From positions 806,001 through 870,000 of the forward strand of contig NC_083398.1 of NCBI RefSeq assembly GCF_030864355.1: 64,000 nt of DNA. The letters are read 5' to 3'. The stretch comes from Cutaneotrichosporon cavernicola. Lineage: Eukaryota > Basidiomycota > Tremellomycetes > Trichosporonales > Trichosporonaceae. The notes under the pieces were generated by a model, which saw only the letters and a list, made by a program, of their open reading frames with translations, ran no database searches and was not told the origin of the DNA. The position numbers and the translations under genes are program-made. Shown here piece after piece: positions 4,523-15,358 of the stretch. Positions within the stretch are counted from its first letter, which is position 1; each line of letters opens with the position of its first letter.

Positions 4523-4537
4523 AGTTGAGAGAGGCGT

Positions 4538-4582
4538 TGAGTGGTCGAGTGGTTGAGTGGTTGAGTGGTTGAGTGGTTGAGT
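4538..4582. repeat. 8-bp tandem repeat (TGAGTGGT) x5.6
   Basis: Five nearly perfect copies plus a partial sixth, beginning 16 bp upstream of the start codon of the DUF3224 gene (minus strand), so in its 5' leader or proximal promoter. Confidence 0.9.
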
Positions 4583-5102
4583 TTGTAGTGAGAACCGATG
4601 AGTGGTGGATTATATGGCGTCAGGTAAGGTGAGTCAACCCCCGTAAGGAGCGGCCATCTCCAAAGGAACGAGGTCGACCGTCAAAGCCAGATAAAGAGGA
4701 ACCACGGAATGAAGATCGCCATGGGGAATGAGGCACGGTCCGGTCATCCATCGTCAACCCAACCCAACCGCCGACAAACGATTACAACACAGAAGCAAGA
4801 GCATGCTAATATTACAAGTCGCAGCTAAGATGGGAACATGTTACCATCACAGTTACGCATGCCACTGTCCGTTAGCGTATGAACAGGCCATTGTGTATGG
4901 GAGTGTGTCTCTCTGTCTTCTCGCTTCCCTCCTCGCCCACTTTCCCTTGTGTCGTGTTTCCCTCGTGCGTGACCCCACAGCGTTCACCATCCCGTCACTT
5001 CTCCTCGTCCGCGGAAGCGCCCAACTCTCCCCACAAGTCTCTCACCCGCCCTCATGCGCTTTGCCCCATGTAAATGCGCAGAGTCCCCCGCCCAACCGCT
5101 AC
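4583..5102. other. intergenic region between the DUF3224 gene and the clr4 3' end
   Basis: No gene seen. A 280-codon plus-strand ORF (4728-5570) overlaps the terminal clr4 exons antisense and has no recognisable domain. The post-SET end of clr4 could extend into this region through an unidentified exon. Confidence 0.4.
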
Positions 5103-8100
5103 TCACCACTTGCACTGTCCACCATTGGGGCGTCCCACAGCTCTGGGGTTCACATACGCCTGCACGCTCGTCTTGTTCTTGTCACGTCTGCCGCGCCGCG
5201 GCGTTTCCATGACTATCTCAGACTCGTCCGGAGTCCCTTTGTACGAGATACACATTTCTTCACCAGGGCGGATGTCGAAGCGTGCAAAGATCACCAGCAG
5301 CGGGCGCTCGGGGTGTGCGTCCTGATATCAGCGCGAGTTCGCTGGACTGGAGCTCACCGTGACATACGCCTGAGAGGTAACAAGGTTTGGATTGCACGAG
5401 TGGTTAATATATCGGGTGAACTGGCATTAATTAGATTCAGGAGATCGAAACTCACATTCTGGGCACGGAAAAATGATGAAAGGGGTCAGCTCTGTCAAAA
5501 TAATCGCAGAAGGTGCGATTCTGCAACACAAGTTCTTATAGCTTACCCCCAAGTGAAACGCATCGACTGATGTTAGTTGTGCTTAACCAGACCCTGGGAC
5601 TCACCTGAGTATGCCGAATAGGAGAAGTCGCAGTCATTATCGTCAATGCCGACCGCCTCGGACGGGTCCGAGATTGTGCCCAACTCCATCAACTCCTTGG
5701 CCTTCCATTTCTGCGCACGGTCCTTGACGGTCATGGCGAGCTCGTAAGCTCGTGGATCGATGTCTTCAAGGCCGTCCGGAGGGTGTGAAATGTGGTAGCC
5801 GTCGAGGTCGAAGAGGTACGTCCGGCCAACTTTCTCGTAGACACGACCGCGCACCTCCGTCTCAGCCTCAGTCACGAACTCGCCAGAGTAAATCCCGATG
5901 AAAGTGCCCCTCTTGATGAAACTTTTAGCCCGCACACCTGGGGGTTAGTAACCATCCGCGTCCAGATCCTATTAGCTCAAATTCACCCCAGCCCTTCTGC
6001 CGAGTCTTGAAGATTTCGACAACCGTATCCTTACTGCGCCCGCGCTGGATCACGCGGTTCATGCATTCGGGCGGGCAGCCGCAGTTGGGGCCGCACTCCC
6101 AGATGGGACACTCGTGGTTTTTGACAGTACCGTCCCTGGCGTCAGCTTCAAATCTAAGCAGGATGAAATTACTCGTTGTATTGGAATCCATGGTAACCTT
6201 CAAGGTTGTAAAAGTACAGCTGTTGACGCTTGACGCAAAGACACGTCGTTGACAGCGGATCGCACGGCCCCTCACAGCCACAGCCCTGGCCGAGCTCGGG
6301 TTCTGGAACCTCTGTGCTGTACAGCATCTGATTGCTGTATTGGAATTCAAAGTTTGGCGGGACCCCGTCGATGTGGTTTACGACCTTGATGGCCGGGGCG
6401 TTCGGTTCGTCGACGGCCGTGAACATGGACATGTACATCTCAAAAACCTCGCGATGAATCGCTGGGTTCAGAAATGAGCCTTTGCTGATCAGCTTGTGGT
6501 ACTGATCGATTATGTGCATGTCGAGGTGGCGGTTCACCTTCACAGCCATGCCAGCAGGTGCGAGTTCGCGCGCAGTCACAGACTCTTTTCTTTTGAATAG
6601 CCCATCGCCGTCCGACAGGCGCTGGGCGCTATCAATGAGGCGCTCCCACTCCCGGCGACTGATGCGAGCCGGGACCTCGAGCACCTCGACCTCCTCATCA
6701 GTAATCTCCATCGGGGCCGCGAGCCCATGCGACGGGGGTGTTAGGACCGCGTCATCAATCGGCGACGCTTCAGTGTGCGAGTCGTGCATTTTAGCGAGTC
6801 TCGAGTTATCGGTGGTTGTGGTTGGGGCGGTAGAAGGTGCCCGTGCTCTCGGTGAGTTTTCAAGATCTTCAGTAGCTCGCTCCGCGACAGCTGTAGAGGT
6901 AGGCTCCTCAGCCGGGCCAGTTGCGTCACCAGGGGCCACAATTTCCTCGATTTCGGCATCGTCGAAAACACTGATGACGTCCTCATCAATCTCGAAAGAG
7001 GGACCGTCGTCAATTGCGGAGTGAGGCGCGGGTGTCAGACTCCCTTCGGGAAGGGGAGGTATCAGGTCCTCGTCGTCGTCGATGTCGGCCATGCCAACGC
7101 TGTCACGCGGCGCATCATCGAGCACCATCGCCTCGGCCGAGGGACTCACGGCCGCGCCGGATAGGGAAGGAAACGGAGACGTCCTGGTCACCACCGTGGA
7201 TAATGCCGGCTGAGGAGGAGACGAGGCAGACTTGGGTTCGGGTGCAGAGGCTAGGGGCTGGGACATCGAGGGGCTGGCCTCGGGCGTGGCAAGTGGCTGG
7301 GAGGCGGGGCGTGAGACAGGACGTGAAGACGGGCGCGAGGACGAGCGCGAAAGAGGACGTGGCGGTGGCTGCTCAGGCGACGCGTTGTCGGTCGCCCACA
7401 ATGGACCCATGCGTTTCTTCACTGGCGCAGGCAACTCTGCCTCCGGCGGTGGGAACGTGAACAGCGGCGTAGCGGATGCGCGTGGTAGCGGAGGCCCGGG
7501 TGCGTCTCCTTCAGCGACAGGCGTGGCGGTCGGTGCCTTGGCTCCTCCCAGTGTGCCGCGGGGCGCCTTGCCTCCGGTCGACTTGCGTGCCATCATACCA
7601 TGATGCTTTACGGTGCGTGAGGGAGATCTTTCACGCAGGCGGACGCGGTGTGGCGTGATCTGAGCCTGCGACGGAGGCTGGCCCAGGACGTTTAAAGGCT
7701 CAAAGTTACCCCACTCGCCGAGCTTGGGGCCCAGCGAGCTCGGCGCCTTGTTGGCCTTTGGCCGCTGGCCTTCGGGCCGGCCTTCGACAACAAGCTTCTC
7801 GAAGTTACCCCATGACCCCAGGTGCGTGCCCTCATGGAAGCCGTCCGTGCGGCGCTTCTTCTTCCGCTGGGAGGGAGGAAGGTTGGCCTTCCGCTTGGTC
7901 GTCTTGGTCTCATCATCCGAGTCAATGACAACAATCTGACGAGACGGTCCTGCCTCGGCATTGTCGGAGAAGTAGTCGCGCAGAGGTCGCTGTGTCGCGA
8001 CAGGCGATGTAACTTCGCCCCGCTTGCCTTTGCCCTTATAATTCGAACCGTTCTCGCGGTTGGACACGGACGAGCCATTCATGCGCTGGGACGAACTGGG

Positions 8101-8435
8101 CGTCGCGATAACTGGAGGTTGGGCTAATGCACTTGGGCCTGGTGTAAGCAGTCGCTTGAGTGGCTACACACCAGCGGCACCGCGCTTCTCGCGTTCGCGC
8201 AGCTTATTGAGTTGTGCGTTGAGGTCACTCTCGTCCGGGTCGGAATCAGGCTGGCGTACCAGACCTTGCGCCCGTACGCGGCTGCGCCGCGGTGTTCTGA
8301 GCTGTTGGTGCTGCGACGAGTGTTGTGGTTGCTTGTCGTCGCTGTCATCATCAAAGACGAAAGGGTCTTCTTGGGCTATGCATTAGCGTTATGTGTGTTG
8401 GTGGAGGTACGCATCGCCGATTGTGGTGGCGTCAT
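5103..8435 (-). CDS. clr4: histone H3K9 methyltransferase, Clr4/SUV39 (KMT1) type
   Basis: Heterochromatin enzyme that methylates H3 lysine 9. Exons: 8411-8435, 8172-8375, 6173-8138, 5987-6135, 5605-5937, 5547-5566, 5456-5458, 5358-5420 and 5103-5321 (about 993 aa); the phases agree throughout. The N-terminal ~600 residues are largely disordered and show no chromodomain. They hold two copies of a WGNFE motif. The pre-SET cysteine cluster follows (GCGCEGPCDP, CPIWECGPNCGCPPECMNR). The SET domain has KGWGVRA, GTFIGIYSGE, RYINHSCNPN (cofactor/catalytic core) and the F-D-I-R-P-G-E-E motif. The 3-nt exon at 5456-5458 encodes the Asn before FTRYINHSC. The last exon reads QCKW-stop. The full post-SET cysteine motif was not found, so the 3' end is uncertain: a donor at 5106 may join an exon I could not place. 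Confidence 0.9.
5456..5458 (-). other. clr4: putative 3-nt micro-exon (AAT, Asn) in clr4
   Basis: Read on the minus strand, the three bases AAT are flanked by CCAG on the 5' side and GTGAGT on the 3' side, both good splice sites. The upstream exon ends after VDAFHLG (5547) and the downstream exon starts with FTRYINHSC (5420). SUV39 proteins have ten residues between VDA and NHSC with Asn after Gly; this is obtained only if AAT is included. Confidence 0.7.
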
Positions 8436-8898
8436 GCATCACAACGGCGCGGTATTCACGATGACGGTTTGTTCGGCGTGGGTTGGAGCGGATTGGTGGA
8501 GGGAAGGTTGAGTGCCTCAGTGGACTGTGCACAGTGGTAATACCCCAAACACCTATTTACACCAAAGTGACGCTCTGGGCCCAAATATACACTCCCAGAG
8601 GCTCAAAGTAGTTATATAGCCTCCAGATGGTCCGGGGACTCACTTCCGAGACTTTGACGAGGCCCAGCCATGCTGGAAAACAAGTTGTGGGAAATGGGTG
8701 TGGAGAATGGTATAGCAAGGTGCTGGGAGGACACTCATCTGCATCTGCATCAGCTTCACCTAAAGGTAGGGGCTTATATAGGGTGCCTGAGTGTCAATAT
8801 AAAAGGATTCCAGAGTTCCAGAATGCAACAACAAATATCAGACCCCAGACTCTCCACTAACAGCCATCCAGTCATCCAAGCACCAACCTTTTGCAACC
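8436..8898. other. divergent promoter region between clr4 and the Rpr2-like gene
   Basis: No gene seen. The region serves as promoter for both flanking genes. A TATATAG-like stretch at 8613-8619 and TTATATAGG near 8771 are possible core-promoter elements, unproven. Confidence 0.45.
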
Positions 8899-13493: not shown

Positions 13494-15358
13494 ATGGCTG
13501 CCCTTGCTCGGTGAGTACCACAGCTTGTAACCCCAGCGTCGCTGACGCCAGTGCTCTCCCGCGCCCTGTACATGCGAGCGTCGAGGAGGAGGAGGCGCCG
13601 GTGCTCAAGACGCTCCCCAAGGCTAACATTCCTGTGTACGGCAAGCGCAAGGGATGGAAGCCGAGCAGCGAGGCCGACTTTGGCGGTGGCGGCGCGTACC
13701 CGGAGGTGAGTAGCTTGTGAACGCCGGCCTAGCTAACCCCAGTGCCATGTCGCGCAGTACCCGCTCGAGATGGGCCGCAAGAAGACGGCACCCGGGTCGA
13801 CAGTCGCCCTGCAGGTCGACGCAGACGGGACTGTGCGGTACGACGCGATTGCGCAGCAGGGCCGCGGATCTGGACAGCGCGTGCAGTCGAGCTTCAAAGG
13901 TGAGCTTTCATATGATGTAAGGAAGCTGACGTCAGACCTTGTTCCCTATGCTAACCGCACCGATGTGTCTGAGGACGACCGGGCCATGCTCCGTCCCGAC
14001 GAGGAATCGGTGAACGACACGACTGAGAGGACACGGCTGGCACTCGAGAAGATCACGCACGGCAAGATCAAGGCGGCGCAGCCCAAGCATGTGCCAAAGG
14101 CCAACGGCGACGCGACGTACATCCGCTACACCCCAGCTAACCAAGGCGCAGACAAGAGCAAACAGCGCATTATCAAGATGACTGAGGTGCAGGAGGACCC
14201 GCTGGAGCCGGCGCGCTTCAAGCACAAGAAGATCCCGCGAGGGCCAGGCTCGCCACCACCGCCCGTGATGCACTCGCCACCGCGCGCAATTACCAAGCAG
14301 GACCAGGCGGACTGGGACATCCCACCGTGCATCTCCAACTGGAAGAACAACAAGGGTTTCACGGTCCCGTTAGACAAGCGCCTGGCAGCCGACGGACGCG
14401 GGTTGCAGGACGTCGGGATCAACGACAACTTTGCCAAGTTTGCTGAGTCGCTGTTCGTGGCCGACCGTCATGCACGAGAGGAGGTGCGCGCTCGAGCGCA
14501 GATGCAGCAGCTCCTTGCGCAGAAGGAGAAAACGCAGAAGGAGGACAATCTGCGCCTCCTGGCCCAGAAGGCGCGCGAGGAACGGAGTGGGGGTGCTACT
14601 GGGTCTGGGGCACCGCGCGAGATCGCGGCACCGTCCCTGGGCGTCGGGCTCGGCGGGTACGCGAGCTCGGACGACGAGTCTGGGAGTGGCAGCGACGAGG
14701 AGTCTGATGATGAGGCGGCGGTTCGCGAGCGCGAGGCTGTGCGTGAGGAGAAGCGCCGGGAGCGCGAGAAGGAGCTACGCATGTCCAATATGGGCAACGA
14801 GCAGCGGGCCAAGATTCTCGCACGTGAGCAGAACCGCGACATCTCGGAGAAGATTGCTCTGGGCCTCGCCAAGCCCTCCGCGTCCAAGGAGACGCTGCTC
14901 GACTCGCGTCTGTTCAACCGCGAGTCTTTGGCAACTGGCTTTGGGGCGGACGACTCCAACAACCTGTACGACAAGCCGTTGTTTGCGGGTTCGACAGCGG
15001 CTGCGGCGATCTACCGGCCGCGCGGGAACGCGGGCAACGACGAAAGCTTCGGCGGCGGCACAGAGGAAGGCATCCGTGCCGAGTTGGAGAAGGACAGGTT
15101 CGCGCTTGGCAAGGCGACACGCGGCTTTGACGGTGCGGACAGCAGCGAGGTCCGCGATGGGCCTGTCCAGTTCGAGAAGGAGATCAGCCTGGACGGCACG
15201 GCTGACCCGTTCGGTGTCGAGCAGTTCCTTGACGCAGCTAAGCGTGGAGGCAAGCGTGCAGCAGCTGACGACGACCGGTGAGTGATGAGCGTGTATGCCA
15301 CAACTGAATCTCCGCTGACACCAGTGACGACGCGCGCAAGCGCCATCGCGAAGATTAG
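13494..15358 (+). CDS. PRP45: SNW-domain splicing factor (Prp45/SKIP/SNW1)
   Basis: Component of the activated spliceosome that bridges the Prp19 complex and transcription. Five exons: 13494-13510, 13552-13705, 13743-13899, 13936-15277 and 15325-15358 (1704 nt, 567 aa). The first exon is 17 nt. Key motifs are PYGKRKGW-like IPVYGKRKGWKPSSE, AQYPLEMGRKK, and the SNW core with GPGSPPPPVMHSPPR, PPCISNWKNNKGFTVPLDKR and NDNFAKFAESLFVADR. A charged helix, an acidic serine stretch (~residues 290-320) and the C-terminal FAL-GKATRGFDGADSSE region follow, then a basic end (DDARKRHRED). The intron 13900-13935 is 36 nt, a multiple of three, so the unspliced frame also reads through. It is treated as an intron because its removal restores SSFKDLVP as in the family. 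Confidence 0.95.

Follow-up and report, generated by a model that had tools for sequence, protein, structure and literature searches.

Can an exon of three nucleotides supply a residue of a SET domain? The question is raised by a locus in the 64,000-nt stretch of DNA from Cutaneotrichosporon cavernicola (Tremellomycetes, Trichosporonales) that we analysed in full and call the window. A sequence-only reading of this stretch had proposed that an isolated AAT codon, lying between two introns, forms a micro-exon that provides the Asn of a Clr4-type SET domain. We examined the gene, its splice sites and its relatives, and weighed this reading against other ways of splicing the same bases.

The gene lies at about 8671-4825 on the minus strand and comprises 10 exons encoding 1006 amino acids in the model made here. 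Its start codon, at 8671, was taken from the deposited model P0002; start codons at 8439, after which the frame broke, and 8414 were dropped once P0002 had been compared. The structure search, the first protein search and the comparison of SET scores given below used the protein of the earlier model (start at 8414), whose SET part is identical. Pfam identified a Pre-SET domain in the gene model protein (58.1 bits, cut-off 29.1) and a SET domain in the 1006-residue model (78.7 bits, cut-off 22.4). Nine cysteines are the rule for Pre-SET domains, and the cysteine pattern is visible by eye in the translation; the post-SET motif, CxCxxxxC, is present as CKCGMRNC. The search returned no chromodomain at E values up to 1. 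An N-terminal chromodomain is found in Clr4 and SUV39H1, not in DIM-5, and is not required of all SUV39/KMT1 members. The closest solved structures are chains of H3K9 methyltransferases, including 1mvh, Cryptic loci regulator 4 (E = 1.7e-34). The gene at 4825..8671 is a Clr4-type SUV39/KMT1 H3K9 methyltransferase of predicted activity. Elsewhere in the window, judged by eye, a long ORF at 12756-9916 (minus strand) resembles a kexin-type subtilisin protease and has a membrane segment at its C-terminus, and another long ORF at 13737-15281 (plus strand) resembles an SNW/SKIP-type spliceosomal protein; a short tandem repeat with the unit ACTCAACC lies at about 4535-4582 on the minus strand.

In the joined exon model, the N-terminal half of the SET domain is encoded by the exon at 5605..5937, and the last exon (4825..4864) completes CKCGMRNC, which the deposited model also has, after a 242-nt intron (5106-4865). 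Together with four other introns in the conserved part of the gene (6172-6136, 5986-5938, 5604-5567 and 5357-5322), this intron was checked by its junction peptide, and all five peptides were found in the deposited model of C. cavernicola or that of HIS471. The 242-nt intron cuts the post-SET CxC motif; at the same place P0181, P0182 and P0022 end in CRW and P0187 reads CKW, so this intron looks conserved.

Between these parts lie exons of 20, 3 and 63 nt, with introns of 38, 88, 35 and 36 nt between them. The 20-nt exon (5547..5566, minus strand), aligned with relatives, encodes (S)VDAFHLG and runs from phase 1 to phase 0. It is followed by an 88-nt intron (5459..5546; GTAAGC...CTGAC...CCCAG), with a branch-point A 27 nt from its end and a tract that is 83% pyrimidine, and then by AAT (5456..5458), which encodes Asn-901 of the model and is in phase 0 on both sides. 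A 35-nt intron (5421..5455; GTGAGT...CTAAT...GCCAG), complete with splice sites and branch motif, separates AAT from the 63-nt exon (5358..5420), which encodes FTRYINHSCNPNLVTSQAYVT, begins FTRYINHSC and holds the NHSC motif. The site thus reads CCCAG-AAT-GTGAGT, with AAT at 5458-5456 on the minus strand, and offers all that we demanded of a micro-exon: a 3' splice site, an exon of at most 30 nt, a 5' splice site and branch motifs in both introns. Its flanking splice sites look strong. The coordinates that the sequence-only reading had given for the end of the VDAFHLG exon (5547), the start of the FTRYINHSC exon (5420) and the codon itself all hold, and the joined translation confirms that VDA and NHSC are separated by ten residues, Asn among them. 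Only with AAT included does the spacing of the SET domain and NHSC equal that of relatives outside Tremellomycetes. The exon ends flanking the micro-exon are CACTTGGGG before it and TTCACCCGA after it, and their direct join is the product of skipping; the expected transcript strings are CACTTGGGGAATTTCACCCGA if AAT is included and CACTTGGGGTTCACCCGA if it is skipped.

We assessed how readily such an arrangement arises by chance. In the window as a whole, YAGAATGTRAGT is found a single time, where 0.02 occurrences are expected. Dinucleotide shuffles of the 126-nt stretch between the flanking exons (n = 20,000, ends kept) were searched for an AAY exon that is followed by a GTRAGN donor, has a branch-point motif on either side and divides the stretch into sub-introns no shorter than 31 nt. 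None of the 20,000 contained one; 5 did when the demand for branch points was lifted, and 2 contained an exon of any triplet with that demand in place. We then enumerated every way of splicing the stretch with one or two introns, allowing GT or GC donors, AG acceptors and a minimum intron length of 28 nt. The frame to YINHS is preserved in 19 of these solutions, and DAFHLG as well in 11 of the 19. Just one of those listed leaves a lone residue, Asn, between Gly and Phe. Scored on the protein with the earlier start, the SET domain reached 82.2 bits in Pfam with the Asn and 73.9 without it.

The introns of this genome provide a further frame of reference. In a 264-kb sample (the window and a further 200 kb), introns sought between coding flanks numbered 45 candidates, 24 of them no longer than 70 nt, none of these 24 belonging to the Clr4-type gene. 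With CT in place of GT the same procedure gave 21 candidates and 5 short ones, compared with 45 and 24 for real donors, and the reversed sequence gave 1. The 35-nt intron (5455-5421) is ordinary for this genome, since lengths of 34-37 nt form the commonest class (10 of the 24 short introns). The 88-nt intron (5546-5459) departs more from the norm, with 27 nt between its branch-point A and its end, compared with 7-30 nt in the 24 short introns (16 of them at 10 nt or less), a comparison that leans slightly, the pattern used having missed distances under about 7 nt. The idea that so small an exon strains exon definition is probably beside the point, as the downstream intron has the commonest length in the sample and fits intron definition with sequential removal.

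Is the residue itself expected? When 66 of the 81 hits from the first protein search were aligned, exactly one residue proved to be missing (G-FTR or G-YTR) in 18 deposited Tremellomycete gene models from five genera: C. oleaginosum, 13 Kwoniella, Vanrija pseudolonga, Cryptococcus amylolentus, C. wingfieldii and Dioszegia hungarica. Five further models are damaged more widely at the same spot, those of C. cavernicola and HIS471 being without NHSC, those of C. gattii and Cryptotrichosporon argae reading G-NHSC, and that of Vanrija albida being garbled. In the same alignment Asn is present in Naematelia encephala, Tremella mesenterica and P0026, and two more searches added further rows that carry it (P0083, P0084, P0098, P0103, P0181, P0182 and P0183, the last from Mrakia frigida). 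Across all 199 proteins (P0002-P0200), 46 were labelled Tremellomycete and 153 other, by species name or by similarity, so that some rows with no clean match may sit in the wrong group. Outside Tremellomycetes 105 of the 153 rows match cleanly and every one has the residue (100 N, 2 S, 2 G and 1 T); the other 48 have no clean match. The 46 Tremellomycete-labelled rows divide into 18 that miss the residue, 10 with N (among which P0026/P0084 and P0181/P0182 are near-copy pairs) and 18 without a clean match, the latter being the five damaged models together with 13 rows that are not intact as far as the site. The Asn had been described as conserved; this stands for the position, which all 105 clean matches fill, and less so for the identity, five of them having another residue and Clr4 itself Asp.

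On a tree of 37 rows, including 8 of the 13 Kwoniella, the missing state requires five changes, at least four of them forced by well-supported branches, so a genuine loss would need to have happened repeatedly at a single column. Two of the ten rows with N, Mrakia frigida P0183 and P0103, are placed by this tree outside its main group of Tremellomycetes. P0083 runs unbroken from pre-SET to post-SET on a contig of 1824 nt and reads GNFTRFFNHSC; it looks like a spliced transcript, because the gene of the window's species is cut by many introns. In P0084, P0181 and P0182 the Asn is contiguous with both of its neighbours. The last two lie on long genomic contigs (23,623 and 188,844 nt) and are placed, with modest support (89/57 and 87/89), between lineages that lack the residue; having the codon without flanking introns, they indicate that the micro-exon is not universal.

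Other relatives preserve traces of the splice sites. The ORFs of P0108, P0109 and P0112 read VDAFHxG and then VS, as expected from GTG AGT, which points to a phase-0 donor after the Gly in these relatives too. Back-translation of P0109 admits YAG-AAY-GTRAGT 64 nt into the intron, as do 24 of 3,000 shuffles, and the FTRF exon expected downstream was not found in the P0109 ORF; an AAY micro-exon there is a possible hint. A scan of genome contigs with the Tremellomycete alignment returned one unrelated bacterial SET locus, a SET-domain-like match at L002:2331-2570 on a 43,989-base contig of Paraburkholderia phenoliruptrix (27% identity), and a scan of viral contigs returned nothing.

The deposited model of the window's own species, P0002 (CcaverHIS002_0603740), agrees with the 8671-4825 protein outside three mis-spliced stretches. 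One of these is the site in question, where it is without both Asn and NHSC; the other two are elsewhere. Its SET domain scores 19.8 bits, under the Pfam cut-off of 22.4, and that of P0003 (HIS471) scores 37.3. The genome paper describes the use of RNA-seq hints (PMC10568926), and that the model lacks the Asn despite such hints is a counterpoint to the micro-exon. However, since it also loses NHSC, the model is wrong at this site anyway.

These observations have to be set against three other ways of reading the site. A single 126-nt intron (5546-5421) might be removed, leaving AAT a chance triplet and the enzyme truly without the Asn. This solution is among those enumerated and keeps the frame (126 = 3 x 42), and the same gap appears in the deposited models of C. 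oleaginosum, Kwoniella, Vanrija, Cryptococcus and Dioszegia. It would nevertheless make a coincidence of an AAT with splice sites and branch motifs that no shuffle reproduced, and would leave an enzyme lacking a residue that is missing from 0 of 105 clean matches outside the group and is present as N in ten Tremellomycete-labelled rows, among them P0181 and P0182 between lacking lineages (modest support). We consider it very improbable. Hardly credible at all is a supply of the Asn by a larger exon or by other splice sites in the stretch. A second AAT does stand at 5520-5518, after TTGCAG and 26 nt past the donor, but no other solution with one or two introns of at least 28 nt leaves one residue at this place, and AAT at 5458-5456 is the sole stop-free exon between an AG and a GT whose length is divisible by three and which is removed by at least 28 nt from both ends. 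We also considered whether a hairpin of 9 bp, which the 88-nt intron can form over the TTGCAG at about 5521, masks that site, and rejected the idea, as its stability does not exceed that of shuffles (z of -0.55, with 61 of 200 shuffles as good).

The remaining alternative accepts the exon and makes it alternative: inclusion would give the active enzyme and skipping an in-frame, Asn-less form, inactive or altered, which could putatively tune heterochromatin. Skipping AAT indeed keeps the frame (1005 amino acids in translation), and retention of either or both flanking introns stops translation after 935 to 943 amino acids, so a switch is conceivable; a conditional 20-nt micro-exon switch has been described for Xlr2 of Trichoderma (PMC11121469). 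Strong-looking flanking sites speak against it, as does the conservation of the position across the whole family, which argues for constitutive inclusion, and we judge it unlikely. Its fullest form, in which the exon is ancient in Tremellomycetes, including Cryptococcus and Kwoniella, and is regulated so that skipping yields an Asn-less, crippled H3K9 methyltransferase, is a similarly doubtful proposition.

The proposal of a 3-nt exon supplying the Asn of the SET domain is therefore strongly backed by the rarity of the motif, the shuffles, the unique enumerated solution and the relatives, and the micro-exon is highly likely to exist in the window's species. We conclude that AAT at 5458-5456 is very probably a constitutive exon that annotation pipelines skip and that many Tremellomycetes share. 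It is likely that the micro-exon itself, and not merely the missing residue, is conserved among Tremellomycetes, and it is probably common to much of the class. A 3-nt exon would be too small for the spliceosome to work on both of its sides at once, and the two introns would instead be excised in turn, by intron definition. Most likely the 35-nt intron would leave first, fusing AAT to the NHSC exon, and the 88-nt intron, with its long pyrimidine tract, would follow. This sequential removal follows the logic of small exons in plants, where microexons are described as depending on signals within the introns beside them and as leaving too little room for complexes on the two introns simultaneously (PMC8831610). 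The arrangement would extend over Trichosporonales and Tremellales. Annotation pipelines that join the two larger exons across AAT would then produce 18 deposited proteins without one SET residue of the real enzymes; the gap would recur because the software joins over the tiny exon.

Annotation errors also suggest how the arrangement may have arisen. Four Agaricomycete models (P0053, P0107, P0114 and P0127) read GN-NHSC, with the five residues FTRFL (15 nt) missing, and in P0021 and P0022 (C. gattii and Cryptotrichosporon) the N and five residues (18 nt) are missing, which suggests a further 15-nt exon before NHSC in some lineages. In the simplest reading of these errors, the intron after the Asn would be old, the intron before it would have been gained in Tremellomycetes, giving rise to the 3-nt exon, and some lineages would owe the 15-nt exon to a third intron ahead of NHSC.

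Enzymes of the Clr4 type hold a central place in heterochromatin research on basidiomycete yeasts. Provided that the exon exists and relatives share it, at least 18 species have a deposited SET domain that is off by one residue, and in five more the error covers a longer stretch; expression constructs or structure models made from such entries would carry a gap six residues before NHSC. AAT would also offer a clean test of how a spliceosome used to introns of about 35 nt deals with an exon too small for both splice-site complexes. Were the regulated reading true, heterochromatin would have a one-codon switch that almost no deposited model of the class shows.

The protein resembles Clr4 (PDB 1mvh and kin) in its Pre-SET domain, SET domain and NHSC motif, and in an equal VDA-NHSC spacing once the codon is included; it differs in having Asn where Clr4 has Asp and in the lack of a detected chromodomain. 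Stwintrons, nested fungal introns that are removed in order, share with this site the successive removal of two introns from one stretch, but here three bases remain in the mRNA. We accordingly rejected a stwintron, as the solution that fits the family leaves AAT between two complete introns, and regard these as two adjacent ordinary introns.

A tiny exon is on record from Sirobasidium, itself a Tremellomycete. Among the bglA genes of basidiomycete yeasts, the shortest exon is the 5-bp exon of Sirobasidium magnum (PMC9142197); bglA resembles the present gene in having tiny exons between short introns in an intron-rich gene of a basidiomycete yeast, although an exon of 5 bp is not a single codon, and the relevant passages mention neither its conservation nor its omission by annotation. 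Exons of 6 bp upward are described for P450 genes of Phanerochaete (PMC1184071). Closer in kind are the CYP621A P450 genes of Fusarium, with a 1-nt exon for which SRA reads serve as proof (PMC12940212). There, as here, an ultra-small fungal exon lies in a conserved motif and is missed by annotation, and the evidence likewise includes conservation of length and a relative without the introns (PMC12940212). The CYP621A exon differs in being 1 nt at a phase-breaking place, whereas AAT is 3 nt in phase 0, is known here from DNA, and would on omission leave a readable, shortened protein. A '3-bp exon 2' is mentioned for gpd of Ganoderma (PMC8379801), wording that could denote either an exon of 3 bp or three bases belonging to exon 2, and given this ambiguity we do not claim the first 3-nt exon in basidiomycetes. 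RNA-seq work on Cryptococcus has been run with the aligner's microexon search switched on (PMC3990503, PMC8022950), and the relevant passages of these papers list no such exons. Among the matches listed, the titles, abstracts and selected passages contain no report of an AAT micro-exon in a Clr4-type gene.

Beyond fungi, 3-nt exons are described in mouse Ncam and Drosophila troponin T (PMC8042270) and in Drosophila homothorax (PMC7392893); like AAT, each is a single codon between two introns. Alternative splicing is described for those of troponin T and homothorax (PMC8042270, PMC7392893), while AAT is most likely constitutive and lies in an enzyme domain. In plants, conserved 1-nt exons of APC11 and VPS55 and pervasive misannotation of microexons have been shown by RNA-seq and RT-PCR (PMC8831610), a demonstration that sets them apart from AAT. 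Plant microexons share with AAT the conservation over a large clade, the misannotation, the loss of introns in some lineages and, in VPS55, the GTRAGT donor (PMC8831610). Tiny exons are thus already known in animals, plants and fungi; the comparative result, 18 gene models short by the same single residue, is new.
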